Part shown: piece by piece, positions 10,521-28,321 of the stretch
How positions within the stretch are numbered: position 1 is the stretch's first letter
How the letters are laid out: each line of letters opens with the position of its first letter
Assembly: GCA_003666485.1 (NCBI GenBank)
Contig: CP032931.1
Span: 992,001-1,056,000 of the forward strand
Reading direction: 5' to 3'
DNA from: Levilactobacillus brevis
Lineage (GTDB): Bacteria; Bacillota; Bacilli; Lactobacillales; Lactobacillaceae
Length of the DNA stretch: 64,000 bases
Made by a program: the position numbers and the translations under genes
Notes under the pieces: generated by a model
Seen by the model: the letters and a program-made list of their open reading frames with translations, nothing else
Database searches by the model: none
What the model was told of the DNA's origin: nothing

Positions 10521-10819
10521 GCTGGCCGCCTACCGTCCACCAAATATGGGTCGGAACGCTGTGGGCGGACGGGTCGAGCCAAGAATCGGTCTCGACGCCT
10601 CGCCTTTGAGCCGAAGGTCGCGTCTCAAAGACGCCAGTTTCCTAAGCGGCATGAATCGCGCCGCTAAGGAAACTCCCACGGCTGAGCCCATATTTGGCGG
10701 ACTCTCGGCTACAGACGTACTTGCCAACAATAATCGATTTAATCCCTGGCTGACGCAGGCTCCTGGTTTCACCGATTTGGGTGGACAGAACACTGTCGTT
10801 CCGGAATTAACGTGTTAAG
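10521..10819 (+). repeat. R1-A, structured intergenic repeat, full copy
   Basis: Core 10521-10712 runs from GCTGGCCGCC to CTCGGCTAC. The 16-nt closing arms 10535-10550 and 10687-10702 pair with one mismatch. Inside are an inner helix GCTGTGGG/CCCACGGC and three hairpins (GTCGAG/CTCGAC, CTTTGAG/CTCAAAG, and a long one with arms CTAAGCGGC-like and GCCGCTAAGG). A 3' tail to 10819 is shared with R1-B. It follows the last XrtG-locus gene by 90 bp and fills much of the gene-free stretch 10431-11333. Confidence 0.85.
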
Positions 10820-10853
10820 CTGACCTGCAACCTTTTGTCAATACGAATCAAGT

Positions 10854-10882
10854 GAGTCTGGGACCAGTTCTCAGGCTTTTTT
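10854..10882 (+). terminator. Rho-independent terminator downstream of R1-A
   Basis: AGTCTGGGA pairs with TCTCAGGCT-type sequence through 9 bp including G-U pairs, followed by six T. Confidence 0.6.
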
Positions 10883-11192
10883 GTCGCCGAAATCTAAAGA
10901 AATCCGTAAGCTCGGGTCAAACCTAACAGATCAAGGGTGCCTCGCCAAAGACTCTGCTATACTCAGGCCATTGATTACGCCAGCAAGTCAGTTTTCATCG
11001 GTATTTTGACGAAAATTGCGGTTGGGTGAGCAAACCAATGCGTGTTGGTTCAGAAATTTGCTATACTATGAGCGGAAATGTGTTTCATTCAGGAAAGCTT
11101 GTCAGGACAACTACCAGAAAGGATGTGCCTGTCGAAGACAAATGAATTCGAACCGCAATTTTTCCAAATTGGTGCTCATGAAAATCAATTAA

Positions 11193-11222
11193 TTTTATAA
11201 TTGGGACGAACCAATTATAAAA
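11193..11222. promoter_or_regulatory. Perfect 12-bp palindrome just upstream of the xfp promoter
   Basis: TTTTATAATTGG and CCAATTATAAAA are exact inverted repeats separated by GACGAA, ending 4 bp before the -35 box of xfp. An operator is likely; an AT-rich terminator for upstream transcription is the alternative. Confidence 0.6.
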
Positions 11223-11226
11223 AAGG

Positions 11227-11254
11227 TTGACTTTTCGGAAAACTTTAGTATGAT
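11227..11254 (+). promoter_or_regulatory. Promoter of xfp
   Basis: TTGACT at 11227-11232, a 16-nt spacer and TATGAT at 11249-11254. The leader of about 75 nt ends in GAAGGAG before the start. Confidence 0.7.
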
Positions 11255-11333
11255 TAAAGAATACAAATTAGCTACGGCTGATTGACGTTAATTGTTGCAA
11301 AGCAAGTTACCTAACGAAGGAGTGTAAGAATTC

Positions 11334-13793
11334 ATGGCAGTAGATTACGATTCCAAGTCTTACTTGGAAAAAGTTGACGCTTGGTGGCGTGCCACGACGT
11401 ACCTTTCCGGTGGTATGATCTTCCTGAAGAGCAACCCATTGTTCTCAGTGACGAACACACCAATCCAAAAAGATGACGTTAAGGTGAAGCCTATCGGGCA
11501 CTGGGGTACTATCTCAGGACAAACGTTCCTGTACGCCCACGCCAACCGTTTGATCAACAAGTACGGCTTGAACATGTTCTATATCGGTGGTCCCGGTCAC
11601 GGTGGCCAAGTTATGGTAACGAACTCTTACTTGGATGGGACTTACACGGATGCATATCCAGAAATCACCCAAGACCTTGAAGGGATGTCCCGTTTGTACA
11701 AGCGTTTCTCCTTCCCTGGTGGTATCGGTTCCCATATGACTGCCCAAACGCCTGGTTCACTCCACGAAGGTGGGGAACTTGGTTACTCTCTTTCCCACGC
11801 AACTGGTGCTGTCTTAGACAACCCAGACCAAATCGCCTTCACTGTTGTTGGTGATGGGGAAGTTGAAACCGGCCCAGCCATGACTGCTTGGAACTCCATC
11901 AAGTTCTTGAACCCTAAGAACGACGGTGCCGTTTTACCAATCCTTGACTTAAACGGGTTTAAGATCTCTAACCCAACGTTATTCTCACGGATGAGCGATG
12001 ACAAGATTTCTAAGTTCTTCGAAGGCTTAGGCTGGTCACCACGCTTCCTTGAAAACGAAGATATCCATGATTACATGACTTACCACGAAAAGGCTGCTAA
12101 GTTATTTGATCAAGCAATTGCTGATATTCAACAAATCCAAAAAGATGCTCGCGAAAACGGCAAGTACGAAGATGGGACTATCCCAGCTTGGCCAGTTGTT
12201 ATCGCACGTTTGCCTAAAGGTTGGGGCGGTCCTCAAAAGAACCCTGCTGGCGAACCTATCGAAGGCTCCTTCCGTGCTCACCAAGTTCCGCTTGGCTTAG
12301 CACAAGGTAAGCTTGATGAATTACCAGAATTCGAAGCTTGGATGAACTCATACAAGCCAACCGAATTATTCAACACTGATGGTTCATTGAAGGCAGAAGT
12401 CGCTGATTTTGCCCCTAAGGGTGACAAGCGGATGGCTGCTAACCCAGTTGCTAACGGTGGCCGTGCTCGCGGTGCCAAGGCCGACATGCTCGACCTGCCT
12501 AACTGGAAAGACTTCGCTAACGACATCGACGCTTCTAACCGTGGGACCCAATTGCCAGATGGCAACAAGAACATGGACATGAACGTGCTGTCAACCTTCT
12601 TCGCTGGTGTTGCAACGAAGAACCCATCATCATTCCGGATCTTCGGACCTGATGAAACGATGTCTAACCGTCTTTGGGAAATGTTCAAGATCACCAACCG
12701 TCAATGGATGAGCAAGGTCAAGGAACCAAATGACCAATACGAAGCCCCTGAAGGCCGGATCTTGGATGCCCAATTATCAGAACACCAAGCTGAAGGCTGG
12801 CTTGAAGGTTACACCTTAACTGGTCGTACCGGTGTGTTCACGTCTTACGAATCATTCTTGCGGGTTGTCGACTCAATGACGACGCAACACTTCAAGTGGA
12901 TCCGTCAGGCCGCTGCTGAACCATGGCGTAATGATTACCCATCATTGAACCTGGTTTCAACTTCAACTGTGTTCCAACAAGACCACAACGGTTACACCCA
13001 CCAAGACCCAGGTATGCTGACGCACTTGGCTGAAAAGAAGTCTAACTTCATCCGCCAATACCTGCCAGCTGATGGGAACACGTTATTGGCTGTCTTTGAC
13101 CGGGCCTTCAAGGACCGTCAAAAGGTTAACCATATCGTTGCTTCCAAGCAACCTCGTCAACAATGGTTCTCCGTTGCTGAAGCCGAAGAACTGGCTAACA
13201 CTGGTTTGAAGACGATCGACTGGGCTTCTACTGTTGCTGAAGGTGAAGATGCTGATATCGTCTTTGCTTCTGCTGGTGTTGAACCAACCATCGAAACTCT
13301 GGCTGCACTTAGCCTGATCAACGATGCTTTCCCAGCCGTTAAGATGCGTTACGTCAACGTGGTTGAATTAGAACGTCTGCAAAAGAAGAACGGGCCTCTG
13401 AACGACGACCGTGCTTTGAGCGATGCTGAATTCAGTTCACTCTTCGGCGAATCCGGGACACCTGTTGTCTTTGGTTTCCACGGTTACGAAGACTTGATCG
13501 AATCCTTCTTCTACGAACGTCAACACTTAGGCTTACACGTTCACGGTTACCGTGAAGACGGTGATATCACGACTGCTTACGACATGCGTGTATACTCCGA
13601 ACTTGACCGGTTCCACCAAGCCAAGGATGCTGCGAACACCTTAGCCGCTAAGGGCGTTATTGACGAAGCTGCCGCAAAGGCCTTCGACAAGAAGATGGAT
13701 GACATCTTAGCTAAGCATTTCAAGGTTACCCGTGACGAAGGTCATGATATTGAAGAATTCACGAAGTGGGCATGGTCTCCACTGAAGAAGTAA
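11334..13793 (+). CDS. xfp: Xylulose-5-phosphate/fructose-6-phosphate phosphoketolase
   Basis: An 819-residue thiamine-diphosphate enzyme, full length for the family. It splits xylulose-5-phosphate (and fructose-6-phosphate) with phosphate into acetyl phosphate and an aldose phosphate, the defining step of heterofermentative sugar breakdown. Visible signatures: GPGHGGQ near 84, GGIGSHM, the ThDP/Mg motif GDGEVETGP near 172 and QDHNGYTHQDPG in the pyrimidine domain. Codon choice is strongly biased to a small set (AAC, GAC, CGT, GGT), unlike most neighbours, as expected for a very highly expressed central enzyme. It has its own promoter and terminator. Confidence 0.98.
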   Translation: MAVDYDSKSYLEKVDAWWRATTYLSGGMIFLKSNPLFSVTNTPIQKDDVKVKPIGHWGTISGQTFLYAHANRLINKYGLNMFYIGGPGHGGQVMVTNSYLDGTYTDAYPEITQDLEGMSRLYKRFSFPGGIGSHMTAQTPGSLHEGGELGYSLSHATGAVLDNPDQIAFTVVGDGEVETGPAMTAWNSIKFLNPKNDGAVLPILDLNGFKISNPTLFSRMSDDKISKFFEGLGWSPRFLENEDIHDYMTYHEKAAKLFDQAIADIQQIQKDARENGKYEDGTIPAWPVVIARLPKGWGGPQKNPAGEPIEGSFRAHQVPLGLAQGKLDELPEFEAWMNSYKPTELFNTDGSLKAEVADFAPKGDKRMAANPVANGGRARGAKADMLDLPNWKDFANDIDASNRGTQLPDGNKNMDMNVLSTFFAGVATKNPSSFRIFGPDETMSNRLWEMFKITNRQWMSKVKEPNDQYEAPEGRILDAQLSEHQAEGWLEGYTLTGRTGVFTSYESFLRVVDSMTTQHFKWIRQAAAEPWRNDYPSLNLVSTSTVFQQDHNGYTHQDPGMLTHLAEKKSNFIRQYLPADGNTLLAVFDRAFKDRQKVNHIVASKQPRQQWFSVAEAEELANTGLKTIDWASTVAEGEDADIVFASAGVEPTIETLAALSLINDAFPAVKMRYVNVVELERLQKKNGPLNDDRALSDAEFSSLFGESGTPVVFGFHGYEDLIESFFYERQHLGLHVHGYREDGDITTAYDMRVYSELDRFHQAKDAANTLAAKGVIDEAAAKAFDKKMDDILAKHFKVTRDEGHDIEEFTKWAWSPLKK

Positions 13794-13837
13794 TTCTTCG
13801 ATTCAACTAACTTAACATTTCGCGCGTCATGCGCAGA

Positions 13838-13873
13838 AAAGGATCAACTCATTTGTGGGTTGGTCCTTTTTTT
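13838..13873 (+). terminator. Terminator of xfp (copy 1 of a duplicated terminator)
   Basis: An 11-bp stem, AGGATCAACTC with GGGTTGGTCCT, loop ATTTGT, then seven T. The 29 bases 13843-13871 recur unchanged at 14489-14517. Confidence 0.85.
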
Positions 13874-13945
13874 GCTCAAATCGCTGGATAAGTTGTACTT
13901 TTTATTGTACAATTTAATAAAATTTGATACGTGGGAGGACTTTTT

Positions 13946-14212
13946 ATGGACGCGGTATCCTATTCAGTTTTTCGGAAAAATTTGAAGTATTATTTGCGCC
14001 AAGTAAATGATGATGCCACAACGTTGTTGATTACCAATCGAGATAGTGATGATGATACAGCCGTGTTAATGTCGAAACAAGATTATGATAGCATGGTTGA
14101 AACTCTACGAATTATGAGTAATCCAGATTTGATGGCAAAAATTCGCCGTGGGCAGAAGCAAATTGCGGCTGGGAAGGCAAAGCAGCATGAGCTGATGGAT
14201 CCAGATGATTAA
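13946..14212 (+). CDS. yefM: YefM/Phd-type antitoxin
   Basis: An 88-residue protein with the Phd/YefM pattern: N-terminal DNA-binding fold (SYSVFRKNLKYYLRQV), then VLMSKQDYDSMVETLRIM and an acidic, flexible C-terminus that would neutralise the toxin. ATG 13946 follows GGGAGG by 7 nt. The end overlaps the toxin gene by 8 bp. Antitoxins of this type usually repress their own promoter; a TTGTAC...GTACAA palindrome lies just upstream near 13893-13913. Composition is more AT-rich than the surroundings, in line with acquisition. Confidence 0.92.
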   Translation: MDAVSYSVFRKNLKYYLRQVNDDATTLLITNRDSDDDTAVLMSKQDYDSMVETLRIMSNPDLMAKIRRGQKQIAAGKAKQHELMDPDD

Positions 14213-14462
14213 AGCATGGACTGATGAAGCTTGGGACGATTATATGTACTGGCATCAGCAAAATGACAAGCAAATGATTAAACGAATTAATAAGTTAGTA
14301 AGAGATATTGAACGACATCCATTTGAGGGACTAGGAAAACCTGAGCCTTTAAAGCATGAATTGACCAATCTATGGTCTCGAAGAATTACGCAGGAACATC
14401 GTCTGGTTTATCAGGTTGTGAAGGATAATTTGTATATTATTTCGGCGCGGAATCATTATTGA
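14205..14462 (+). CDS. yoeB: YoeB-type mRNA interferase toxin
   Basis: An 85-residue RelE-superfamily ribonuclease that cuts mRNA at the ribosome. The expected catalytic set of YoeB is present: Glu in HPFEGLGKPEPLK, Arg in WSRRITQEHR, and the terminal His-Tyr (ARNHY). Length and ending match E. coli YoeB closely. It overlaps the antitoxin gene, so it is made from the same message. It seems complete and presumably active. Confidence 0.94.
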   Translation: MIKAWTDEAWDDYMYWHQQNDKQMIKRINKLVRDIERHPFEGLGKPEPLKHELTNLWSRRITQEHRLVYQVVKDNLYIISARNHY

Positions 14463-14485
14463 TGTCTTGTATGACTAATTTTAGA

Positions 14486-14517
14486 AGAATCAACTCATTT
14501 GTGGGTTGGTCCTTTTT
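14486..14517 (+). terminator. Terminator after yoeB (copy 2 of the duplicated terminator)
   Basis: The same 29 bases as in the xfp terminator (14489-14517) end in five T. The stem base is slightly altered (AGAAT instead of AGGAT), otherwise the hairpin is the same. Confidence 0.8.
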
Positions 14518-14643
14518 GTTTTGGCAGAATCTTTGAAACGGCGGTTTACTTTTACAGAGTAACGCTTCATAATGGTGGATATGGTCTTGGTTAATTCGGT
14601 GATGAACTAATTACATAGTGACATAGTGAGCGAGGTGAGAGGG

Positions 14644-15591
14644 ATGCAAAGCAATCAGCGAATCGCGGAGTTAATGGTGCGGTTGATGTCTGGCGAAACG
14701 TTAAAACAAAGCGATTTGGAAGCAAAATACGGTGTCAGTCGTCGTACCTGCCAGCGCGACTTTGCCTACATTCGCCGGGCCCTTTCAGAGTACGTCGCCG
14801 GTAATTTGCTGGAGGAACAGGGGACCTATCGCCTGGCCCGGCAAAGCGAAGAGACCGACTTCGAAATGGCGCTGACTACCAGCAACATCCTGATCGGCTC
14901 ACGGGCCTTGGATCAAGAAGAATTGAACGGAACGCTGGACTTCTTGAGCAGCAGTCTCTCACCGCAAATGCAAGAGGCTGTGCGCCAACAATTAACGCTG
15001 TCGCGAGGCAGTTATGTCCCGTTGGTACGCGCCAAGCCACTATTGAAACGTCTGAAGGACATGACGGCCAGCATTGCCCAAACGCAACGGTTAGTCTTCA
15101 CGTATTGCGGGAGTAGCGGCGACGACCAAGTGCCTCAAGTCCACCATGCCCAGCCGGTCGCCTTGTTCTTTGAAACATACTACTTCTACGTAGCGATGCT
15201 AAGCGAGGAACACGGCGGCTACTGGTTGTATCGGCTCGACCGTATCGTGGAAATCTTGGCCCAACTCCCCGGCGACAAGCTGGATTACGCCAAGCGCTTC
15301 TCGTTGCAGGAACACCGCAACTATACTTACCTACTGGATACGGGCAATCTCACGCAGATTCGCTTCTTGTACCGCAATTATCCGCAGACGGCGCTGGATC
15401 ATTTCCCTGGATCGCGAATCGTCAAGAAAAATGCGGATGGTAGCTGCGTCATCGAAGCCTACGTCAAGACGGACGGGGCCATGTTGTGGCTGCTGAGCCA
15501 GGGGGCCGGACTACGCGTCTTGTCGCCAGTCTCGCTGATACGGCGGGTCCGTAATGCCTTGGCCGCCGCATGGGATCAGTATGATGATTAA
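14644..15591 (+). CDS. HTH and WYL-domain transcriptional regulator
   Basis: A 315-residue regulator. Residues 1-60 form a DeoR-like winged helix (DLEAKYGVSRRTCQRDFAYI); the middle and C-terminal part is a WYL domain with GYWLYRLDRI, a ligand-sensing fold often controlling stress, DNA damage or defence genes. ATG 14644 is preferred over GTG 14626 because GAGGTGAGAGGG precedes it. It stands alone between terminators, so its target is not evident; no defence genes lie next to it. Confidence 0.85.
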   Translation: MQSNQRIAELMVRLMSGETLKQSDLEAKYGVSRRTCQRDFAYIRRALSEYVAGNLLEEQGTYRLARQSEETDFEMALTTSNILIGSRALDQEELNGTLDFLSSSLSPQMQEAVRQQLTLSRGSYVPLVRAKPLLKRLKDMTASIAQTQRLVFTYCGSSGDDQVPQVHHAQPVALFFETYYFYVAMLSEEHGGYWLYRLDRIVEILAQLPGDKLDYAKRFSLQEHRNYTYLLDTGNLTQIRFLYRNYPQTALDHFPGSRIVKKNADGSCVIEAYVKTDGAMLWLLSQGAGLRVLSPVSLIRRVRNALAAAWDQYDD

Positions 15592-15632
15592 GATAAAGGC
15601 GATAGGGTTTATTTAGATGAGCGATTAAATTT

Positions 15633-15668
15633 CAGGTTACGCCGAAACTGGCGGGCCTGTTTGTTTTG
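15633..15668 (+). terminator. Rho-independent terminator after the WYL regulator
   Basis: CAGG and GCC pair with GGC and CCTG across a short internal loop, followed by a T-rich run. Confidence 0.5.
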
Positions 15669-15720
15669 CCTTTTTTACCAGTTTATTTGGCAAGCGTCAA
15701 ATTGTGGCACCCCTATTTTG

Positions 15721-15726
15721 TATAAT
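15721..15726 (+). promoter_or_regulatory. -10 box for the secreted protein gene
   Basis: A perfect TATAAT 54 bp before the start codon. No convincing -35 box stands at the right distance. Confidence 0.4.
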
Positions 15727-15779
15727 CAAGTCAGTGCTTGGCGGTGTGGCCGAGCCAATTTTAGAGGAGGCAGATACAT

Positions 15780-16427
15780 ATGAAGATGGTTAAGTTGATC
15801 AGCACGCTGTTGGTGGCGACGGGGTGTGGATTATTTGCTAGCGGTGCCATGACAACGTCCACGACGGCGCAGGCAGCGGTGAAGACCCATAAGGTGACGA
15901 AGCTGCCCAAGGCTTTTCGGGGAACTTGGTATAACAAGGGACAGAGGTTTAAGGTGACGGCGAAAAAATTTGGTCCCTCGACCTATCGGAAGAAGCATGA
16001 CACCAACACGATTGCCAGTAGTGAACGCTACTTCATGCCTTACACGCTGAGCAAGCCCAAACAGACCATGTACCTGGTGACGAGCGTTGGTATCAACACG
16101 ATTCGGCGGACGAAGATTGGTGGGCGGGCTGTGTTGATTCGCTACGATGAGCAGGAACACACGAACGAACTGACTATTTACACCAAGACTAAACGGGCTA
16201 AACAACAAGAGGACGTTGTTGCCACCAATCCTTTCGGCATCAATATCACAACGCGTAAGGATGCGCTGAAGAATCAAAGGGGTTACCTCCAGATGAATCC
16301 GACCGTAAAGAAATACCTTGGTCAAGCGATGAAAAAGAAAATTGATAAAATCAATGCCAAACCATTTAAGGGGATTAAAATTACGTCCTACACGGCTTAT
16401 GGTTTCTTCAACAAGGTGGTTCACTGA
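15780..16427 (+). CDS. Small secreted protein of unknown function
   Basis: A 215-residue protein with a signal peptide (about 1-32, ending AQAA) and a basic mature part. The mature N-terminus reads VTKLPKAFRGTWY, close to TPKILRGKWV in the secreted protein at 48257, so both belong to a family of small exported lactobacillar proteins whose role I do not know. No lipobox, anchor or catalytic motif is visible. RBS GAGGAGG precedes ATG 15780. Confidence 0.75.
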   Translation: MKMVKLISTLLVATGCGLFASGAMTTSTTAQAAVKTHKVTKLPKAFRGTWYNKGQRFKVTAKKFGPSTYRKKHDTNTIASSERYFMPYTLSKPKQTMYLVTSVGINTIRRTKIGGRAVLIRYDEQEHTNELTIYTKTKRAKQQEDVVATNPFGINITTRKDALKNQRGYLQMNPTVKKYLGQAMKKKIDKINAKPFKGIKITSYTAYGFFNKVVH

Positions 16428-16453
16428 TAATTATTCTGAAGGGTGAAAGCAGA

Positions 16454-16631
16454 CTTAACACGTTAATTCCTGGAATGACAGTGTTCTGCCCGCTAACATT
16501 GTTGAAACCAGGAACCTGCGTCTTTGAGACGCGACCTTTGGCTCAAAGATGAAGCGTCGAAACCGTTCTTTGGCTCGACCCGTCCGCCCACAGCGACCCG
16601 ACCCATATTTGACGGATGGTAGGCGGCCAGC
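16454..16631 (-). repeat. R1-B, deleted copy of the structured repeat
   Basis: Read on the minus strand it matches R1-A from GCTGGCCGCC through the second hairpin, then jumps to the shared tail (AGAACACTGTC ... GTGTTAAG). The third hairpin and the 3' closing arm are missing. In R1-A the missing part lies between two GACGC copies, so a deletion between short direct repeats explains it. Confidence 0.8.
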
Positions 16632-16659
16632 ACGGACCATTTATCCATAGATGACTAAA

Positions 16660-16692
16660 ACGGGCCTGGGACAAAAGTCTCGGGCCCTTTGT
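16660..16692. terminator. Terminator-like hairpin between R1-B and R2
   Basis: GGGCCTGGGAC (16662-16672) pairs with GTCTCGGGCCC (16677-16687), loop AAAA, then TTTGT. The genes on either side converge, so it could act in both directions. Confidence 0.55.
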
Positions 16693-16710
16693 GTCTCCGA
16701 ATATCTGGTG

Positions 16711-16832
16711 TTGAAACCTGGGCCAAAAGGCAGCTGGTTCCGCTTAAAACTGATAAGCAAACAATCCAAGCCCGGGATTATTCGCTTACCAGCCTTAATG
16801 CTCGCCAGCTAACCGCCTTTTGGCCCACTCTC
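16711..16832. repeat. R2, structured intergenic repeat, copy 1
   Basis: About 120 bp nearly identical to 39233-39355. The outer arms GGGCCAAAAGGC and GCCTTTTGGCCC pair perfectly; inner arms CTGATAAGC and GCTTACCAG pair with one mismatch, and AATCC/GGATT forms an apical stem. No coding potential is apparent. Confidence 0.8.
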
Positions 16833-16852
16833 TGTTTTTAATTAGGTAAATC

Positions 16853-18109
16853 TTACTCGTCTGTCGACAAAGCCGTCAATTTCTGCTGCATCTGTGCCAA
16901 GCCCTGTTTAGGCGTGGTCTGCAACGTGGCGAGCTCGTCGGCGACTTGGCTGGCGGCGTTTTGCGTTTCGCTGTAACCGTAGAAGGCGACGTCTGGTTTA
17001 CCATACGGCAGGGAGTTGACGGTGGCCTTGGCAGCGGGGTTCTTAGCCAGGTAGTTGCGGTAATCCCGGCTCCGCAAGGCTTTGGTGGTTAGGGGCAAAT
17101 AGCCCGTGGCCTTGGCCCATTTGAGCGTCTGCTTTTCCGTTAACAGGAAGTTCATCAGTGCTGCGGCGCCGCGGCGTTGGGCCTTAGAAGCTGAGGTGAA
17201 CATCACCAGGTCATTGCCTTGCACGGAGCGAATCTGGGGGTTGCCCCGGAAGCTTGGCATTTTGGCAGTGGACCAGTGAAGACCCTTGGGCGTGCTGTGT
17301 TGCATGATGCCAATGGCCGCGGAGGTGCCGGTGTAAAAGAGTGTCCTGCCCTTGAGAAAGCGGACGTTGCCGAAGCCATCCGTTCCCGCCGTGGCTGCGG
17401 TCTGGTGCTTGATCATTTGGTAGAGCACGTTGGTCGCGGCCAGCATCTTGGGACTCGCCAGCTGAGGATGCTTGGTGATTATCGGGGTGCCCGCCTGATA
17501 GGTTAGGATGTCCCACTGCGGCAGGAAGTTCTGGTCAAGAGCCAGTCCCGTCAATCCGTGGGCGTGGGCTTTGGCCGCATCTTGCTGAAGGTCGTTCCAG
17601 GTCTTGGGCACGGTCAGATGAAGCTGTTTTAACAGGTCCTGATTGTAGAAGAGGATACCGACGGATTTGGAAAATGGCATGGCGTAGGTCTTGCCGCGGT
17701 ACTGGCTGACCTGGCGCAAGGTGGGGTCGATGCGGTTGCGTGTGTTCTTCGTGATATAGCCATCGAGCGGCACGATGAATTTGCCATGCAGGTAATCCGG
17801 CACCTTGGTATAGGTGGTTTGCGCCAATGTGGGTAACGTCTGTGACTTGGCCGCGGCCGTGATCTTCTGCTGGACGTTGGCAAAGTTACCTTGACCGCTG
17901 GCGACCACGCGGTATTTGGTCTGAGAATGGTTGAAATCACGGATCATGGTGTTGAGCGTCTGCTGGTTGGCACCTGTCATGCCGTGCCAGAAGGTCACCG
18001 TGGTACGTTTAGTTGCAGGGGCCGTCGCCTGTTGACGACCACAGGCACCGAGCGTCCCCGTCAAGCTGAGAGCGGCGATGACGAGAAGATAGCGGGAAAA
18101 CTTTTTCAT
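16853..18109 (-). CDS. ABC transporter solute-binding lipoprotein, carbohydrate type
   Basis: A 418-residue family 1 extracellular binding protein. The signal peptide ends in a lipobox (LTGTLGAC, Cys about 23), so it is tethered to the membrane outside the cell. The motif TVTFWHGMTG at the mature N-terminus is typical of glycerol-phosphate and oligosaccharide binders. Start ATG (18109) has GGAAAGGAA upstream and overlaps the end of the second permease by 4 bp. It is the last gene of the ATPase-permease-permease-binding protein operon. The substrate cannot be told from the sequence; glycerol-3-phosphate or an oligosaccharide fit. Confidence 0.88.
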   Translation of the reverse strand: MKKFSRYLLVIAALSLTGTLGACGRQQATAPATKRTTVTFWHGMTGANQQTLNTMIRDFNHSQTKYRVVASGQGNFANVQQKITAAAKSQTLPTLAQTTYTKVPDYLHGKFIVPLDGYITKNTRNRIDPTLRQVSQYRGKTYAMPFSKSVGILFYNQDLLKQLHLTVPKTWNDLQQDAAKAHAHGLTGLALDQNFLPQWDILTYQAGTPIITKHPQLASPKMLAATNVLYQMIKHQTAATAGTDGFGNVRFLKGRTLFYTGTSAAIGIMQHSTPKGLHWSTAKMPSFRGNPQIRSVQGNDLVMFTSASKAQRRGAAALMNFLLTEKQTLKWAKATGYLPLTTKALRSRDYRNYLAKNPAAKATVNSLPYGKPDVAFYGYSETQNAASQVADELATLQTTPKQGLAQMQQKLTALSTDE

Positions 18110-19083: not shown

Positions 19084-20732
19084 CCTGAATTATTCACCAG
19101 AAACTCCAAAATCCCCATCAAACACATGATTCAAGTGCTTGATGGGAATTTTACGTTTTCACCTTTTAAGTGCAGAAAAAGAGCCTCAGCTCTGGTATAG
19201 TTAACTCGACCAAAAGACACTATAAAGAGAAGAGGACTCTATAATGAAAACTGTACAGGAAATGGCATTTAGTTTCAATAAAAACATTCTAGCATCGCAT
19301 ACCGGCGGTCAATTATCTTCTGATGGTGGCCTAACCTTGTGTGTTGAACTGATGGCAAAGTTTCAGTTCACGAACTTAGCTGACAATCTATTGAAGTTCA
19401 ACGACCATCGACAATACTGCCGACATAGTAATTCAAGTATCTTAATGCAGTTGGTTCTGCAGATCATTGCCGGTTATAATACAGATTCTGCTGCAACCTC
19501 ATTGGTTGCAGAACCATTGTTTAAACTTTTATTGGACAAACCAGCCTTAGCTTCACAAGCGACGATATCCCGTTTCTGGCAACGTATCGATTCCGCAGGT
19601 GTGGACGCCTTCCAGACTTTAAATCAAGCTCTTATTGATCAAGCTCGACTGCTAACTAATCAGACGACCACCATTATTGATATTGATTCAACCCATTCTG
19701 ACACTTATGGCAATCAAGAAGCTACTGACTATAACGCCCATTATGGCTCGGAGGGGTATCATCCATTACTAGCTATCGATAATGATGGTAATCTCATGAA
19801 AGCCATCCTACGGCCTGGTAATGCCTATACCAGCACAGATATAAAAGCCTTTTTAGAACCGTTATTAAAACATTATCAAGACCAATTGCCAGAAACTGAT
19901 ATTCTGGTTCGCGGTGATAGCGGGTTCGCCACACCAGCTGTTTATGATACCTGCGAGGCCGATGATGTCTTTTACATTATTCGCCTCAAACGTAATAAGC
20001 GACTACACAACTTGGCAGAAGAGTTTGTACAGATAAGCGACACAACTGAGTGGCATGAAACCGAAACTCACTATTACTCAGCAACTTATCAGGCCACTTC
20101 GTGGCCTAAACCGCGTCAAGTATACGTTAAGTCAACTCGTGTAGCTGGCGAATTGATCTTTTCACATGAATTTATTGTGACTAATCTGACAAATTTAACC
20201 GTAGAAGCAGCATTTGAACTGTATCATAAGCGTGGTCAGATGGAGAATTATATCAAGGAAGCCAAAGAGGGCTTCTTCTTTGATAAGACTGATAGTTCAA
20301 CGTTTACCGCCAACGCTGCCCGTATGATGGTTAGTGTATTAGCGTACAATATTATCAATTTTATGAAGCAAATAGCCCTACCTAAAACAGAGACCGGATT
20401 GCGTGTTAGTACATTACGAATCCGTTTATTCAAAGTCGCTGCCCGCGTTGTGTTTACCGGTCGACGAATCCAGTTACGACTGAGTTCTCATCACGTTTAT
20501 CATCGACTCTTTTATCAGGTATTACAGCGTATTCAGGCTATTAAATAGCCCCAATTAAAAAAAATTCTGTACGATCAAGGGATAAGTGCACCCAAAAATT
20601 CAAAAATGACTCACCGTTAGGTGATACCATCAAAATTTAGAGTCTCAATACATAGTAAGCAAGATCAAAAGCCGTCAGTTTTTGAAAAACATGAAAACTG
20701 ACGACTTTTTTGAAAGGTATGAATAATTCAGG
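19084..20732 (+). mobile_element. IS1380-family insertion sequence, 1649 bp
   Basis: Terminal inverted repeats CCTGAATTATTCA (19084-19096) and TGAATAATTCAGG (20720-20732) are perfect over 13 bp. AAAAC flanks both ends (19079-19083 and 20733-20737) as a 5-bp target duplication. It carries one transposase on the plus strand, opposite to the disrupted operon. A strong hairpin with a T run lies inside the right end near 20670-20714 and could stop transcription. Confidence 0.92.
19244..20548 (+). CDS. IS1380-family transposase
   Basis: A 434-residue DDE enzyme, full length. Family signatures: SSDGGLTL near the N-terminus, IIDIDSTHSDTYG (first Asp), ILVRGDSGFATP (second Asp) and the YHKRGQMENYIKEAKEGF block (Glu). 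No internal stop, so likely active. ATG 19244 has AGAGGA upstream. Confidence 0.93.
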   Translation: MKTVQEMAFSFNKNILASHTGGQLSSDGGLTLCVELMAKFQFTNLADNLLKFNDHRQYCRHSNSSILMQLVLQIIAGYNTDSAATSLVAEPLFKLLLDKPALASQATISRFWQRIDSAGVDAFQTLNQALIDQARLLTNQTTTIIDIDSTHSDTYGNQEATDYNAHYGSEGYHPLLAIDNDGNLMKAILRPGNAYTSTDIKAFLEPLLKHYQDQLPETDILVRGDSGFATPAVYDTCEADDVFYIIRLKRNKRLHNLAEEFVQISDTTEWHETETHYYSATYQATSWPKPRQVYVKSTRVAGELIFSHEFIVTNLTNLTVEAAFELYHKRGQMENYIKEAKEGFFFDKTDSSTFTANAARMMVSVLAYNIINFMKQIALPKTETGLRVSTLRIRLFKVAARVVFTGRRIQLRLSSHHVYHRLFYQVLQRIQAIK

Positions 20733-21487: not shown

Positions 21488-22531
21488 TTAAGCAAGGTCA
21501 GCACCCCCAGACCAGAGGCAGGCCCCCTGCGCGTCAAATAACAGACAGCCCTGCGCCGCAATCGTGAGTGGTAGGGCGGCCGCCGTGGTGGGTGCGATGG
21601 CGGTGCTGACGAGGTCGCCGTAACTGGTATGTAAATGTGTTTGCGTATCACGGCCGAGACGAACCTGTGTGGTCAGCGTGGCGGTCAGTGGGGAGGGTGT
21701 CGTGGCCACGTGCAAGGCTTCACTGCGAATGCCTAAGGTCGTGGCCTGGGCCAGGTGCGCCGCGGGGAGTTGTTCACACAACGCGGTCGGTAATTTAGCG
21801 ACGGCACAGAGATTGAGCTGTGGCTTGCCAATGAACCGGGCCACTGTCAGGTTCTGAGGGGATTGGTAGAGGGCTTGTCCCGTGCCACTCTGTTGGAGAC
21901 GGCCACGAGCCAGGACCATGATCTCATCGGCGATTTGAAGCGCGTCTTCTTGATCATGGGTCACCAATAAGGTCGTCACGCCGGTCTCGCGTTGGATGTG
22001 GTGGATGACCGCCCGTAATTCCTCACGTAGGGCCGTGTCGAGACTGGACAAGGGTTCATCAAGTAGTAGTAACGCCGGGTGTTTGGCCAACGCCCGGGCA
22101 ATGGCGACGCGTTGTTGCTGGCCGCCAGAGAGTTCCTGGGGAAATTTCCCCAGCTGATCGGTCAATTGAACTAGGTCGGCCAACTCAGCCACGCGTTGGT
22201 AACGGGCGGCCTTTTTGACGTGGGCCATTTTTAAAGGAAAAGCGATATTGTCGCGGACGGTTAGATGCGGATACAGTGCATAGTCCTGAAAGACCATGCC
22301 GATGTTGCGTTGGCGGCTGTCCTGGGCGGTGACGTCGGTCTGGTCAAAGAAAATCTGACCAGCTTGTGGCGTCAGGAGTCCGGCGAGTAGATTCAAGATC
22401 GTCGACTTGCCGCTGCCACTGGGGCCCAGTAGCGCCACTAATTGACCATCGGGCAACGTACAGTTAAAGTGCTTGAGGATGGCGGGGTGACGGTCGTATG
22501 CCAAAGTAATCTCGTGAAGCGTGACCTGCAT
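21488..22531 (-). CDS. ABC transporter ATP-binding protein, MalK/UgpC type
   Basis: A 347-residue ATPase that energises sugar-type import from the cytoplasm. Walker A GPSGSGKST (about 36), Q-loop VFQDYALYPH, signature LSGGQQQRVAIARAL (about 134), Walker B LLLLDEPLSSLD and switch His in LVTHDQEDA are all present. The C-terminal 110 residues form the regulatory TOBE-like domain. It opens the operon; RBS AAGGAGGA precedes ATG 22531. The gene looks intact although the downstream permease is broken. Confidence 0.93.
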   Translation of the reverse strand: MQVTLHEITLAYDRHPAILKHFNCTLPDGQLVALLGPSGSGKSTILNLLAGLLTPQAGQIFFDQTDVTAQDSRQRNIGMVFQDYALYPHLTVRDNIAFPLKMAHVKKAARYQRVAELADLVQLTDQLGKFPQELSGGQQQRVAIARALAKHPALLLLDEPLSSLDTALREELRAVIHHIQRETGVTTLLVTHDQEDALQIADEIMVLARGRLQQSGTGQALYQSPQNLTVARFIGKPQLNLCAVAKLPTALCEQLPAAHLAQATTLGIRSEALHVATTPSPLTATLTTQVRLGRDTQTHLHTSYGDLVSTAIAPTTAAALPLTIAAQGCLLFDAQGACLWSGGADLA

Positions 22532-22569
22532 GAAACGAGTTCCTCCTTTTCACAAACTAGCACGCCCTT

Positions 22570-22588
22570 AACGACATTATACGTCGTT
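22570..22588. promoter_or_regulatory. Palindrome over the -10 box of the ABC operon
   Basis: AACGAC (22570-22575) and GTCGTT (22583-22588) are inverted repeats that bracket a minus-strand TATAAT (22576-22581), 45 bp before the ATPase start. A repressor bound here would block transcription. No regulator gene lies in the operon. Confidence 0.5.
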
Positions 22589-22820
22589 GATTGGGGCTAT
22601 TGTCCCTTAATTATAGCCTATTCCGACAGCGGGTGGTATCAATAATTTTTCTGAAAGAAAGTTGGGGGCAACGATTGGCTGGCTTGTGAAATTTGCCGAC
22701 CGGTAGCGGTCAGTGTCCACACGGCCCGCAACGTTTCTTTAAGAATTAGCAAACGTGATGGCGTGACCGGCAAAACATGCTAAACTAAAACCAACACCTA
22801 CATCAAAGGGGGAGCACGGT

Positions 22821-23525
22821 TTGAAAGTCACAATTTTACTAGTCGAAGACGAAGCGGGGCTGCGCACGCTATTGAGTGCCGAGCTGGGATTTGAGGAATA
22901 CACGGTGATCCCGTGTGCCAGCGGGGAAGAGGCGTTGACACAATTTGCCCAGCACCAGGCCGACATCTCACTGATTATCTTGGATTGGATGTTGCCGGGC
23001 ATCGATGGCCTGGGCGTGTTGCGTAAGATTCGCCGGCATTACGACGTGCCCGTGATTATGATGACGGCCCGCGACTACGTGGGTGACAAGGTCTCGGGAC
23101 TGGATGCCGGGGCGGATGACTACATCACCAAACCCTTTGATACCGAAGAGTTGTTGGCCCGTATCCGGGTGATCTTGCGCCGCAACGTGATTCGCAATTT
23201 GAATGACAAGAAATTTCACGTGGGACCGTTGACCCTCGATACCAAGACGCGGCAAGTCTTTGCGGGGGATGCCGAGATTCAGCTGACCCAGCGGGAGTTC
23301 GACTTGTTACTGACGTTCATGCAACATCCCGGAGAGGTGCTGACGCGCGATGACCTGTTGGACGCCGTGTGGGGCACCAGCTTTGACGGCCAGGTCAATA
23401 TCGTAGACGTCTACGTGCGGTACCTGCGGAATAAGTTAAAGGCAAGTGTGGCCGGCCAGCCCATCCAAACGGTGCGGGGTGTCGGCTACAAGTTAGGCGA
23501 TGACGATGAAGAAAACCCTCTTTAA
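22821..23525 (+). CDS. OmpR/PhoB-family response regulator
   Basis: A 234-residue two-domain regulator. The receiver has acidic VEDE near the start, the phospho-acceptor Asp in IILDWMLPG (about 54), Thr in MMTARD and Lys in ITKPF. The C-terminal winged helix holds LTQREFDLLLTFMQHPGEVL and VDVYVRYLRNKL. The start is TTG 22821, with GGGGGAG 8 nt upstream; no ATG is available. It overlaps the kinase gene by 26 bp, so the two are made together. Regulated genes are not evident. Confidence 0.93.
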   Translation: MKVTILLVEDEAGLRTLLSAELGFEEYTVIPCASGEEALTQFAQHQADISLIILDWMLPGIDGLGVLRKIRRHYDVPVIMMTARDYVGDKVSGLDAGADDYITKPFDTEELLARIRVILRRNVIRNLNDKKFHVGPLTLDTKTRQVFAGDAEIQLTQREFDLLLTFMQHPGEVLTRDDLLDAVWGTSFDGQVNIVDVYVRYLRNKLKASVAGQPIQTVRGVGYKLGDDDEENPL

Positions 23526-24906
23526 TACCAGTGCGGCGCGGATCACCAAGGTCTACGCGCTGCTCTTGTTAGGCATCACGGTCATCTTGAGCGCCGTGAT
23601 CATTTCCGTGGTCGGCTGGAAGCAGGCCCAAGTCCAGCGACACCAAGCGTTGGGCATCGTGCGCGGGCTTAAACGTAGCTTCATCGCCAATCAAAACGAC
23701 TGGTACTGGTGGCGATTGGGTAGCTCGGCCGATACCGACACGACTTTTATTCGCATCAGCGTGGCCAAGCCCGGTCAAGCGCACCGGTATTTGTACTCGC
23801 CGCACGCCAAACATTTTTTGGCCACCGAACGGCGGGGGACGCTGCACCGGATCACGCCCAACATCGGCTACCTGAGCAACAGTGGCTTTGTGTACCACGT
23901 ACGGGCCTCGGACGTGTCGACGGACCGGCACGACCCCACCGTGCGCTACGACGTGTGGGTCAAATTAAACGGCGTGACCGACCTGTTGCTCCTGTTGATC
24001 AAATTAATTTTGCTGATTGCGCTGGCATTTTTGCTGCTGGGGACCTGGTTCATTTACCTGTTGGCCCGCAAGCTGAACCAGCCGCTAGTCGAGCTGACCG
24101 GGGCGACCAAGGCCATCAACCAAGATATTTCGGAAAATTTCCAGCGGCAACTGCCAGTGCCGGCCGCGCCACAAGAAGTGCACGACTTGACGGTCGAGTT
24201 CAATCAGCTGCTGAATTCGCTGAGTGAACAGGAACTGGCCGACCGGCGTTTCGTGGCCAATGCCTCGCACGAACTGAAGACGCCGATCGCCACGATTCGG
24301 GGATACGTCTCAATGGTCAATCGCCGCGGTCAGGACCATCCGGAGGTGATTCCGACCGCGCTACAGTTCATCGACCAGGAATCAGAACGCATGCAGCGCC
24401 TGGTCACCAGTCTGTTGACCTTGTCGCGGGCCAACCAGTTGGAACTGACCACGACGACCGTTGACCTGAGCCAAGTGGTCACGACCACGGCGCATAATTT
24501 TGGTGCCTCGCTGGACCGTGAGATGGTGTTGCAGGTCCAACACCACGTGGTCGTCGCGGCCAACCAGGACAGCGTGACCCAGATCTTAACCAGCCTGCTC
24601 AGCAACGCGCAGAAATACTCGCCGGCAGACACTGCCATCACAGTCAGTCTGACGGCGGTCGGTAAGCTGGTCACACTGACCGTTGCCGATCAGGGCCGCG
24701 GCATTCCGGATGACCAAAAGGACTTGGTCTTCGGCCGCTTCTACCGCGCCAGCAGCGTCCGCAACGAGGTCGCTGGCAACGGCTTAGGCTTAGCCATCGT
24801 CCAACAGCTGGTCACGTTAACCCACGGCCAGATCAAGGTACGAGACAACCAGCCGCAAGGCACCCGCTTCGAAATCACCTGGCCGCGCGACACACCACAG
24901 GATTGA
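23500..24906 (+). CDS. Sensor histidine kinase with extracellular sensor domain
   Basis: A 468-residue membrane kinase. Membrane segments at about 16-36 and 160-185 enclose an extracellular domain of about 120 residues; HAMP follows, then HisKA with the phospho-His in ASHELKTP (about 257), N box LLSNAQKYSP, G1 DQGRGIP, F box FGRFYRA and G2 GNGLGLAI. It phosphorylates the regulator encoded just upstream. ATG 23500 or 23506 are both possible starts. The signal is unknown. Confidence 0.93.
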   Translation: MTMKKTLFNTSAARITKVYALLLLGITVILSAVIISVVGWKQAQVQRHQALGIVRGLKRSFIANQNDWYWWRLGSSADTDTTFIRISVAKPGQAHRYLYSPHAKHFLATERRGTLHRITPNIGYLSNSGFVYHVRASDVSTDRHDPTVRYDVWVKLNGVTDLLLLLIKLILLIALAFLLLGTWFIYLLARKLNQPLVELTGATKAINQDISENFQRQLPVPAAPQEVHDLTVEFNQLLNSLSEQELADRRFVANASHELKTPIATIRGYVSMVNRRGQDHPEVIPTALQFIDQESERMQRLVTSLLTLSRANQLELTTTTVDLSQVVTTTAHNFGASLDREMVLQVQHHVVVAANQDSVTQILTSLLSNAQKYSPADTAITVSLTAVGKLVTLTVADQGRGIPDDQKDLVFGRFYRASSVRNEVAGNGLGLAIVQQLVTLTHGQIKVRDNQPQGTRFEITWPRDTPQD

Positions 24907-25145
24907 CCCGGAGATGCCCCTGAACGGCAAATAATGGCGGTTTAAGACGGAAGATGGTTTCACACAACTAAATACCCGTTTGGCGAATAAATTAGCTGAG
25001 AGGGGAATCTGGAGTGCCTGTTGGGGAGCGCTCGCATAGTTCCTTGTTGCGTGAGCTACGTTAAATTGGCCAGTTAATTCAGGTAGAATGATGGGGAGTT
25101 ACCTCGCTTCATAGGGTGAGTCGGATATTGCGGATAATTGTGATT

Positions 25146-25320
25146 GTAGCCGAAAGTGGAGAAAAACTAGGCTCAGCCGGGGAATTTTGCAGCGATTTTT
25201 GCTGCGAAATTGGTGACTTTGAGACGTGGGTCGTCGGCTCAAAGCAAGGCACGAGACCTTGGCTCGGGCCGTCCTCCCCCAGCGTTCCAGCCTAGTTTTT
25301 CGCAACGGCAGGCGGCCAGC
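25146..25320 (-). repeat. R1-C, structured intergenic repeat, full copy
   Basis: On the minus strand it runs from GCTGGCCGCC to CGGCTAC. The closing stem is GAAAAACTAGGC with GCCTAGTTTTTC, a sequence unrelated to the closing stem of R1-A or R1-E yet still fully paired. The third hairpin AATTTCGCAGC/GCTGCAAAATT also differs and pairs with one G-U. Conserved parts: GGAACGCTG, CTTTGAGCCGA, GTCTCAAAG, CCCCGGCTGAG. It fills part of the gene-free stretch 24907-25545, which otherwise shows nothing recognisable. Confidence 0.85.
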
Positions 25321-25545
25321 TACCCAAGACCATTTCTGAGAAAATCTCAGACAGTCTTCGTTTTATTTAACTAGAACCCCCCACATAACCCGTGTAGAAT
25401 AACCTTCAGTTAATCAATTTGATTAACCGAGGGGCGTGCGCCAGGGGGTAAGCAGAATAGAAGGTATCATGGTCATTGGAGAAGCAAACGAAAAGTCGTG
25501 TGTCAGCTGTGGGGACAGCGAGACGCATAGTCAGGAGGATGCCAA

Positions 25546-26214
25546 TTGATTAGTAAACTACACATTAGAGTGATGCGGTATGAAGATGTGCCGGCCCTGG
25601 CCAAAATCGTCGGGCGACTCTGGCGCTTTGACTGGACGAACGGTCAGTTGAATGACTTGGCGGCACGGGTGTATTTCCGCCGCTGCATGACCCAGCAAAA
25701 TTACGTGCGGGTCGCGGTGTGGGACGGCCAGGTGGTCGGTGCCATCTTAGCGGACACCAAGTATCAAAAGAAAGAACGGTCCTACGACGTCTGGCAATTG
25801 CTGGTGGCTAAGGCGGCTTTAGCCGTCCGGCCTGGGGGACGGCACTTGCTGAAGCAGTTAAATGAACGTAGCGAAATCGACGAGCGCCTACTGGCCAATT
25901 TGCAACGACGCGAATTCTTGGGGGAAATCGTATTGTTGATGGTCGACCCAGAGTATCAGAATCTGGGAATCGGCCGGGAACTGATGCACACGGTTGCTGA
26001 GTATTGGGATGCGGCGCCGGTCGACAAGGTGTACCTGTTCACGGCGGTAGCCACGACCGGCCACTTTTACCGGCAACACGGCTTTCAAGAAAGCCAGCAC
26101 GAACAGATCGATTGGCAAACAGCGCCGCAACCTCGGCGACTGACTGGGTATTTGTACACGGGTCACGTTCATGACCTGGCGGCAGACACCGCGCACCACT
26201 TACTGGTCGACTAA
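25546..26214 (+). CDS. GNAT-family N-acetyltransferase
   Basis: A 222-residue protein with the GNAT core: the acetyl-CoA pyrophosphate loop QNLGIGRELM at about 144-153, preceded by strand 4 EIVLLMVDPEYQ, then VYLFTAVATTGHFYRQHGF. A 50-residue insertion (about 75-125) between early and late core strands is longer than usual. The acceptor is unknown. TTG 25546 is the start because AGGAGG lies 7 nt upstream. It is monocistronic. Confidence 0.85.
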   Translation: MISKLHIRVMRYEDVPALAKIVGRLWRFDWTNGQLNDLAARVYFRRCMTQQNYVRVAVWDGQVVGAILADTKYQKKERSYDVWQLLVAKAALAVRPGGRHLLKQLNERSEIDERLLANLQRREFLGEIVLLMVDPEYQNLGIGRELMHTVAEYWDAAPVDKVYLFTAVATTGHFYRQHGFQESQHEQIDWQTAPQPRRLTGYLYTGHVHDLAADTAHHLLVD

Positions 26215-26343
26215 TGGCCGATCGGTAGGACTAATTTTGAAGTGACTAACTAGAAATTTGGCCAACAAGTTCCTAGTTAAAAAAGTCTACTACCTACGTC
26301 GAATCTGCTTGAGTTCGGCGTGCACAGCAGACAAACAATGAGG

Positions 26344-26372
26344 GACTGGCTCAAAGGAGCTGGTCTTTTTTT
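26344..26372 (+). terminator. Rho-independent terminator after the GNAT gene
   Basis: GACTGGCTC (26344-26352) and GAGCTGGTC (26357-26365) pair with two G-U, loop AAAG, then seven T. Confidence 0.85.
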
Positions 26373-26607
26373 CGGGTTCAGGGAAACCAAAGTAAGCGTG
26401 TAAACCGGTCGCCGATAAACGTTATTGGATTATTAGTTAACCATCAACTTAGAACCGTAATAAAAATTATTTACATAATTCAGCACTTTTAACTATCTGG
26501 GCATAGTTTTCCAAGGATAATCGGTCTAACATGGGACACATGTTCTTACCTGGGGTTAATCCCCACCGGTCCACTTTTTCTTGTGAAGAGCCGGTTACGT
26601 AAAACGT

Positions 26608-26627
26608 TTCGGTCAACGTCGACCGAA
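26608..26627. promoter_or_regulatory. Near-perfect 20-bp palindrome upstream of the GGDEF gene
   Basis: TTCGGTC and GACCGAA are separated by AACGTC, so 18 of 20 bases are symmetrical. It lies 74 bp before the start codon, as an operator might. The rest of 26373-26700 shows no recognisable riboswitch or gene. Confidence 0.4.
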
Positions 26628-26700
26628 TCGGTTGTCTTTTGCCAACCAGGGCCGTTCGCGGTACCTGGTTATTCACGTAAACTAAAAAGAGGGGTACGTC

Positions 26701-27831
26701 ATGACTTGGTCTCACTGGCAAGTGCCACCATTTATTACCAGTGTGTTTTTTGTTCTCGGTGTCTTCACGTTCTACTGGGTATCCTACAACTGGATCGCCT
26801 CGTGGGCGCGCACACGACGCCTGAAAATCTCTGAAGAAACCATCAATAGTTGGTATGGCATTATCTACATGGTGGTCTTTGCCTTTAGCATTCAAACGCT
26901 GGTGGTCGGCAAGAGTACGGCTTGGGAGTTCATGAATTTCCAGCTGATTGCCATCATCTTTTGCGCATACTTTTTAAAAATTCATATGCCGTATTATTCA
27001 TTAGTGCCGATTTTACTGGTCTACATGGTCTTTGACGGCTCGCTGGTTTACTGGCAGTCTTGGGGCCACGCGATTACGCTGCTGACCTTCTTCGTCGTCT
27101 TGAATCAGGTCCGGCGCAAGTTCTACGATCATCGCTATGCGCCGCTGATGTATATGGCGGTCGGCATCCCGTTTGGCGGCATGTTGTGGCTGTGGATGAA
27201 GTGGAAGTTCGACTTTGCCTGGCTGACTTTTTGGCAGGAGTGGCTGTACCTGGTCATTTTTGAAATTCTGTTGTACATCTACGTGTCGATGCTGTCACAC
27301 GATACGGAGCTGAAATTACGGCTGGCTAAGTTTGCCAGTCATGACGCGTTGACCCATACGCGTAACTTCGCGGCCTATACCGAGACCATCGAGTACCTGT
27401 TTGATGAGAGCCACACGTCCAACCGGCCACTGACAATGATGATGTTTGACATCGATCATTTCAAACAGTTCAATGACACTTACGGCCACGCGATTGGCGA
27501 TAAGGTCTTGCAAGATGTCGCCAGCACGGTCCAAACGGTCTTGGCTGAAAACGACCCGAAGCTCCAACTGTACCGAACCGGGGGCGAGGAGTTCAACGTG
27601 CTCTTCCCGGGTTACGACTTGGACGCCACTAACCGCGTGGTTAAGCAGGTGTTCATGGCGGTTAATCACATGAATATTCACTCGGCCAAAACGGTACTTC
27701 AAGTCTCAATCTCGGTGGGCGTGTCTGAAATCGTGGGCAAGGACCAGTCGCCGCTGGACTTCTACAACCGCGTCGACCACAACCTCTATCGGTCCAAACG
27801 CAACGGCCGGATGCAAATTACTACTGACTAG
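26701..27831 (+). CDS. Membrane-bound GGDEF protein, probable diguanylate cyclase
   Basis: A 376-residue protein with about six N-terminal membrane segments (1-200) and a C-terminal GGDEF domain (about 205-375). Active-site signature GGEEF is intact (YRTGGEEFNVLF), as are the metal site MMFDIDHFKQFND and the SISVG motif, so it should make cyclic di-GMP from two GTP. The inhibitory RxxD site before GGEEF is absent. No EAL or PilZ gene is seen in the window. ATG 26701 has AGAGGGG upstream. Enzymes of this kind are patchy in lactobacilli. Confidence 0.88.
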   Translation: MTWSHWQVPPFITSVFFVLGVFTFYWVSYNWIASWARTRRLKISEETINSWYGIIYMVVFAFSIQTLVVGKSTAWEFMNFQLIAIIFCAYFLKIHMPYYSLVPILLVYMVFDGSLVYWQSWGHAITLLTFFVVLNQVRRKFYDHRYAPLMYMAVGIPFGGMLWLWMKWKFDFAWLTFWQEWLYLVIFEILLYIYVSMLSHDTELKLRLAKFASHDALTHTRNFAAYTETIEYLFDESHTSNRPLTMMMFDIDHFKQFNDTYGHAIGDKVLQDVASTVQTVLAENDPKLQLYRTGGEEFNVLFPGYDLDATNRVVKQVFMAVNHMNIHSAKTVLQVSISVGVSEIVGKDQSPLDFYNRVDHNLYRSKRNGRMQITTD

Positions 27832-27840
27832 ATTGGTGTA

Positions 27841-28023
27841 GGTTGGTCCGCCTTACCGTTCGCCAAATTTGGACCGTGACGCTGTGGGAAGGACCGGTCG
27901 AAGCCGGAGGGCGGTCTTCAACCTCGCTTCGAGCCGAAAACCACGTCTCGAAGACGTCCGTTTTCAAGTAGGTCGCTTGAAAACGCCCACGGCTGAGTCC
28001 AAATTTAGCTCACTCTCGGCTAC
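27841..28023 (+). repeat. R1-D, structured intergenic repeat, full copy, plus strand
   Basis: It starts 10 bp after the GGDEF stop. Closing arms CAAATTTGGAC and GTCCAAATTT pair. The second hairpin is CTTCGAG/CTCGAAG where other copies have CTTTGAG/CTCAAAG, a compensated change. The third hairpin CGTTTTCAAG/CTTGAAAACG is perfect and unrelated in sequence to the other copies. Confidence 0.85.
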
Positions 28024-28130
28024 GTGGCAGATTGGCGCTTGTCATTGACACCAAATTTGGTCAGATTGGACTGTAGTTCACCTGTTACCAAGGACTGACC
28101 CGATTGGTAGATTGGTAGTGAAACATCTCC

Positions 28131-28321
28131 GTAGCCGGGAGTCCGCCAAATATGAGCTCAGCCGTGGGAGTTCCCTTAGCGGCAGGGTTCACGCCGGTTA
28201 GGGAACTGGCGATTTTGAGACGCTAACTTCGGCTCAAAGTCGAGGAGACGAGACCGCTCTTCGGCTCGTCCCGCCGCCCACCGCGTTCCGGCTCATATTT
28301 GGCGGACGGGAGGCGGCCAGC
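28131..28321 (-). repeat. R1-E, structured intergenic repeat, full copy, minus strand
   Basis: The best-paired copy: closing arms GTCCGCCAAATATGAGC and GCTCATATTTGGCGGAC match over 17 bp without mismatch. Inner hairpins GACGAG/CTCGTC, GACTTTGAG/CTCAAAATC and an AGTTCCC/GGGAACT stem follow. It faces R1-D across a 107-bp spacer (28024-28130). Confidence 0.88.

Follow-up and report, generated by a model that had tools for sequence, protein, structure and literature searches.

Large ornate bacterial RNAs such as GOLLD, ROOL and HEARO have many-branched folds. REP and BIME sequences occur as many palindromic intergenic copies, the REPs being 20–40 bp long, and single-strand HUH transposition is not known to leave a target duplication. 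Closer to the element described here are the MITEs: Correia/NEMIS, ERIC, RUP and QMITE elements have inverted ends, a target duplication, no protein and transcripts predicted to fold, QMITE2 makes duplications of 7–9 bp, and bacterial MITEs are mostly shorter than 200 bp and A+T-rich with long stem-loop folds (PMC2229807, PMC10969869). The repeats bcr1 to bcr18 of the Bacillus cereus group are described as high-copy intergenic sequences of 100–400 bp that occur in one species group only and have a mobility tied to a TTTAT motif; bcr1 to bcr3 are called MITE-like, and an RNA structure is conserved in bcr10 and bcr18. In one strain, transcription was seen for roughly half of the copies (PMC3446304, PMC6542083).

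Analysis of the window, a 64,000-nt stretch of Levilactobacillus brevis DNA (C1:992001–1056000 of the 3.1-Mb genome), revealed that the repeat R1 of about 190 nt makes up the central part of a longer non-coding mobile element, as conserved flanks, inverted ends and target duplications all lie outside the 190 nt. This element behaves like a MITE and has the tested defining features of one apart from a known autonomous partner. With the bacterial MITEs it shares inverted ends, target duplication and the absence of a protein, the duplication size being equal to that of QMITE2; it differs from them, as they are described there, by its greater length, a many-branched covarying fold of more than 500 nt, a core G+C content of 0.49–0.63 (28 covariance-model matches) and its presence in 12 genera. 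Like the bcr repeats it is high-copy and intergenic, but unlike them it measures 540–640 nt, carries 14-bp inverted ends and 7–9-bp duplications and is spread over 12 genera; its duplicated targets vary from copy to copy, in contrast to a bcr1-type TTTAT target motif. The many palindromic intergenic copies recall REP/BIME, but length and target duplication separate the element from the short tagged palindromes of the REP/RAYT type. In size and many-branched fold it resembles GOLLD, ROOL and HEARO, from which it is distinguished by the lack of an Rfam match, by many copies and by transposon ends. We consider it probable, mainly in view of the duplications, the covariation and the two covariance-model searches, that R1 represents the core of a MITE-like DNA transposon of Lactobacillaceae, non-autonomous and non-coding, which is moved in trans and whose fold matters to the source copies; the ends, the duplications, the high copy number, the covarying multi-domain fold and the core in 12 genera are the observed part of this reading. 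Published accounts usually portray bacterial MITEs as short hairpins; the element found here is larger, and compensatory change preserves its many-branched fold even though most individual copies seem to decay.

The six R1 copies A to F reported by the sequence-only reading were all recovered by blastn with copy A as query, and that description holds for the edges, the inner helix and the junctions as well as for the variability of the closing stem and of the third hairpin (Table 1). Element A, also labelled L001:1414–1820, is a deletion derivative that has lost much of the 3′ domain. For core C (25146–25320) inverted ends were not identified. D and E turned out to be two inverted cores of one composite element, which is collinear with L110 (also L023), a copy with both ends and inverted composite cores, at identities of 91.8% over 183 nt and 85.9% over 297 nt; the left end of the composite, on the side of D, is not present. 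Hairpins 1 and 2 of R1 (e.g. window 10570–10640) have a common apical motif, GAGCC-RA...CG-GTCTC, as if one had been duplicated from the other or both bound one partner.

Table 1. Features of the R1-type elements in the window (positions are those of the window).
Feature	Position	Strand	Details
Element A	10431–10837	+	407 nt; both inverted ends with 2 mismatches each: CTAAAGGTTACAGG ... CCTGCAACCTTTTG
Left target duplication of A, TCAATAA	10424–10430		right flank 10838–10844 is TCAATAC, one mismatch
R1 core of A (closing stem, inner helix, three hairpins)	10518–10712	+	blastn self-match
Element B, deleted copy	16436–16633	-	one end 16436–16449; partial core 16510–16633, blastn E 9e-40
R1 core of C	25146–25320	-	blastn E 1e-13; closing stem of its subfamily: GAAAAACTAGG
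R1 core of D, first half of composite D–E	27846–28023	+	blastn 27848–28023, E 7e-16
Spacer between inverted cores D and E	28024–28130		mostly inside the second L110 match
R1 core of E, second half of composite D–E	28131–28322	-	blastn 28131–28321, E 8e-60
Outer end of composite D–E	28344–28357		CTTGTAACTTTTAA versus CTTGCAACCTTTAG, read from the sequence
Remnant F, left part of R1 core	54254–54294	+	blastn 82.9%, E 4e-6
Element-free site	58546–58555		counterpart L103 (5855–6125) holds a left-truncated copy

Full-length copies measure 600–644 nt in Levilactobacillus and about 540 nt in a second genus (g55; genomes G343 and G201), which has the same ends, the same duplication size and a similar layout. 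In Levilactobacillus the inverted ends are 14 bp long with the sequence CTRAAGRTTGMAAG; allowing one mismatch, this 14-mer occurs at 62 sites of the L. brevis genome compared with 5 for the reversed control. G343 contains 84 perfect 13-mer ends, and since its elements were picked through such ends, end perfection in this genome merely reflects that choice. Paired terminal inverted repeats were found in two genera. Of the 73 calls in which an element has two ends (at most two mismatches per end and three in total), 46 are flanked by an exact target duplication, of 7 bp in 19, 8 bp in 25 and 9 bp in 2 cases; 13 further calls show a duplication with one mismatch and 14 none. In a few cases (L097, L191, L256) one element enters the count under more than one pairing of its ends, so that the proportion with a duplication comes out too low. 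Shuffled right flanks gave a mean of 0.7 exact duplications and a maximum of 4. The full-length query copies L026 and L027 from the L. brevis genome belong to those without an exact duplication. In the second genus, target duplications are exemplified by L189 (GCTAATAA), L206 (TCAAAAAG) and L213 (GACGCGAC). Across 53 elements longer than 500 nt the longest complete open reading frame has 39–102 codons' worth of amino acids (39–102 aa), so that, as in MITEs, high copy number goes along with the absence of a transposase gene.

In the L. brevis genome, blastn with copy A gave at least 42 matches, at least 40 of them nearly full length at E < 1e-60, with 40 of 301 candidates scored, which is well above chance. 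Six copies per 64 kb extrapolate to about 290–300 genomic copies, a figure that was not obtained by counting copies singly and assumes that the window density and the 301 candidates hold. By blastn, 28 of 35 genomes of the genus match (this one included) and none of 23 genomes from other families. The covariance model of the core and the search of Lactobacillaceae that the sequence-only reading had proposed were carried out, and 86 of 301 genomes, belonging to 12 of 40 genera, match at E ≤ 1e-4 (at most nine matches scored per genome, often several copies each, with rough E-values); across 299 genomes drawn from the class the same model detected the L. brevis genome only. A pattern scan of named genomes returned 52 stretches from L. 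angrenensis, L. suantsaiihabitans and Lactobacillus sp. HBUAS51381. In a separate search with a pattern for the flanks, the locus L036 was missed. Many intergenic repeats of these food-related lactobacilli are explained by the element, and the model can serve for the annotation of R1-type repeats.

No blastn match to the 195-nt core of A was found in 72,556 plasmid records or in 50,697 phage records, and IMG/VR contained no match to one exact 20-base pattern; near records may be missing from these collections. The earlier remark that no Rfam family matches R1 stands: the window has no Rfam match at gathering, and at eight loci searched at E ≤ 1 the four matches lie far below gathering, none of them an intron or ribozyme, so that R1 does not belong to a known Rfam RNA, group I and II introns included. 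The sequence-only reading has to be corrected in that R1 is part of a mobile element with inverted ends and target duplications. No description of an R1-type element was found in open-licence literature, judged by titles and abstract openings among the matches listed; one paper mentions Lac-1, a family of Lactobacillus johnsonii, and marks it with a G in its table (PMC2267715).

Four of six rows comparing filled with empty sites were examined, the other two being L095/L060 and a first L099/L036 row. The comparison lends support to mobility, but the four contain no clean pair with R1's own ends. Two rows are readable. In the first, the left-truncated copy L103 faces the element-free site of the window; in the second, L074 is filled and L092 empty with CAATCATCT duplicated, and here the duplication is made by the ends of a D1-type repeat that encloses the R1 element. 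L083/L058 and L036/L099 show no clean borders. In L329 and L330, too, D1 copies are split by R1-type insertions; the far side of the insertion into the D1 copy was searched for in L330 and not found. D1 itself is a second intergenic repeat family of 148 nt, represented in the window at 16685–16832 and 39208–39355 by copies 87% alike. Its arms are GGGCCAAAAGG / CCTTTTGGCCC, and comparing L074 with L092 shows a duplication of 9 bp; the family has 56 matches in the L. brevis genome, about 20 of them nearly full length and weak antisense self-matches included.

Compensatory change in the R1 stems, first noticed among the window copies, holds in a wider alignment of 28 diverse cores (A2), composed of 25 of 31 representatives plus three more window copies, with ends set by hand in 10 rows; L005, the second L044, the third L046, L083, L094 and L121 were left out. 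Of 53 pairs common to the consensus folds of both strands, 35 change on both sides compared with 19.8 after shuffling, 91.5% of the cells pair (78.1% shuffled), and covariation scores 0.336 where shuffled alignments score 0.108. None of 500 shuffles reached any of five covariation measures, although relatedness of the cores can inflate this test, and sliding the columns by 1–3 lowered pairing to 33–51%. In the closing stem every one of the 13 pairs varies in both partners, whereas the GGAACGC / CACGGCTGA junction is largely constant. Beyond the core, the consensus fold of 20 full-length Levilactobacillus copies consists of a 5′ part, the R1 core, a middle domain and a 3′ domain, and 16 elements of the second genus have a similar domain layout (L219 being badly aligned). 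Four full-length copies gave minimum free energy z-scores of -4.7 to -9.2 (30 shuffles each). The core is not uniform: in eight alignments shown to other loci, hairpin P3 is absent in three.

The relation of G.U to A.C oppositions was used as a strand test. For the plus-strand fold of the 20 full-length copies it amounts to 293:116, a ratio biased by folding itself, and on the pairs common to both strands to 85:79; by domain the values are 39:33 (5′ part), 6:23 (core), 6:8 (middle) and 34:15 (3′). The corresponding values are 128:267 in 146 home-genus cores, 21:51 in A2 and 51:46 in G343. The test points to opposite strands in different domains and so does not single out one strand. In the MITE-like reading the fold of one strand, as a transcript or as single-stranded DNA, would help source copies to spread, for example by conferring stability, recruiting a protein or rendering insertion near gene ends harmless. 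A further-reaching version, in which the whole non-coding body is a selected RNA or single-stranded DNA device whose fold, retained over 12 genera despite free sequence change, aids transposition or escape from the host, one enzyme reading both ends and fold, appears possible to us but rather doubtful. Either way, the element raises the testable question whether the spread of a transposon can depend on RNA or single-strand structure.

Covariation might also arise without selection on structure, if template switching or inversion at quasi-palindromes copies one stem arm onto the other and an otherwise ordinary MITE drifts. Several observations agree with this: the core of L108 is inverted relative to its own ends, the composite cores of L110 and D–E are inverted, closing stems are very variable and yet paired, and singletons break pairs. 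L022:1119–1301 is a mosaic R1 copy that resembles the A subfamily on its left and the D subfamily on its right, a pattern that gene conversion or recombination would produce. Copying of arms should, however, erase asymmetric loops. The GGAAC internal loop, lost or changed in four of the eight alignments and kept in the other four, fits this expectation, but the apical AGCC...CGGUCU hairpin motif is kept in seven of the eight; the largely constant junction of A2 and the similar predicted order of domains in two genera likewise argue against arm copying, and we rate it as an unlikely explanation.

Whether selection acts on every copy can be judged from rare changes. In 146 distinct home-genus cores, 55 singletons fall on paired sites (0.0032 per site) and 17 on unpaired sites (0.0028 per site); the 55 comprise 32 mismatches, 9 G.U, 11 changes that are still Watson–Crick and 3 facing a gap. 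Since singletons hit paired sites as often as unpaired ones and mostly break pairs, single copies appear to drift and the compensations to have occurred in lineages that were still spreading. Individual copies thus seem to drift, whereas the fold is retained in the lineages that spread. Of the selection on structure postulated by the sequence-only reading, the part that concerns subfamilies is retained; selection on each copy does not follow from covariation within one genome, given the pair-breaking singletons of the 146 cores. In 15 elements of G343 (L219 left out), singletons are rarer at paired (51; 0.0118) than at unpaired sites (41; 0.0178), so that a mild constraint on single copies is possible there.

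These data bear on the idea that R1 is an RNA useful to the host, a regulatory or stabilising module for neighbouring genes with many copies individually selected and mobility explaining only the spread. The strong covariation of the 28 cores and the G343 singletons would agree with it, as would the gene context: at 39 of 40 L. brevis loci callable by simple open reading frame detection, 16 copies lie between convergent, 21 between tandem and only 2 between divergent genes. This distribution is also expected if promoter-near insertions are lost. Individually useful copies are, however, difficult to reconcile with the free breaking of pairs in the 146 cores, with the many truncated, nested or inverted copies and with candidate numbers that differ widely among species of the genus, and we hold this idea to be improbable. 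In the MITE-like reading favoured here, each new copy would mostly drift and then be cut down or rearranged via deletions and inversions between stem arms.

With regard to movement, mobilisation by the folded RNA itself, as in a group II intron, a retrozyme-like element or similar, is suggested by size and many-branched predicted fold but appears very improbable in view of the inverted ends with 7–9-bp target duplications and the absence of an Rfam intron or ribozyme match at the eight loci. The MITE-like element would instead be moved by a transposase acting in trans on its ends, and inverted ends together with 7–9-bp duplications suggest an enzyme of the DDE type. An autonomous partner with the same ends was not found in 35 G343 stretches and 61 transposase loci. 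The 35 stretches, read inward from single ends, lead into R1-type sequence in 32 cases and into ordinary genes in 3; L230, L231 and L237 have an end and ordinary genes without an element. G343 gave no match to the transposase families ISL3, IS256 or DDE_Tnp_1 and one rve match under the cut-off. At the 61 loci of the ISL3, IS256, DDE_Tnp_1 and rve families no convincing pair of ends was seen, three of 11 weak candidates (at most four mismatches at an end) having been examined.

Several candidates were rejected. The right end of the L301 pair is unlike a transposon end, L259 and L313 have R1-type ends beside an insertion sequence, L259 being an R1-type element of 599 nt, and L204, a 3.7-kb end pair in G343, shows no duplication and encloses genes that by eye resemble a glycosyltransferase cluster. 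IS6 ends and those of the R1 element have GTTGCAA in common at equivalent positions, and the size of the duplication would agree; IS6 was nevertheless discarded as mover, since PF13610 had no match in the L. brevis genome and, where ends could be read, the IS6 loci of the genus show the differing sequence GGYTCTGGTGCAAA. The window itself encodes an IS256-type transposase (Transposase_mut) at 5321–6496, one of 20 matches in the L. brevis genome, and a DDE_Tnp_1 transposase at 19244–20548, one of 14 equal-scoring copies in the same genome.
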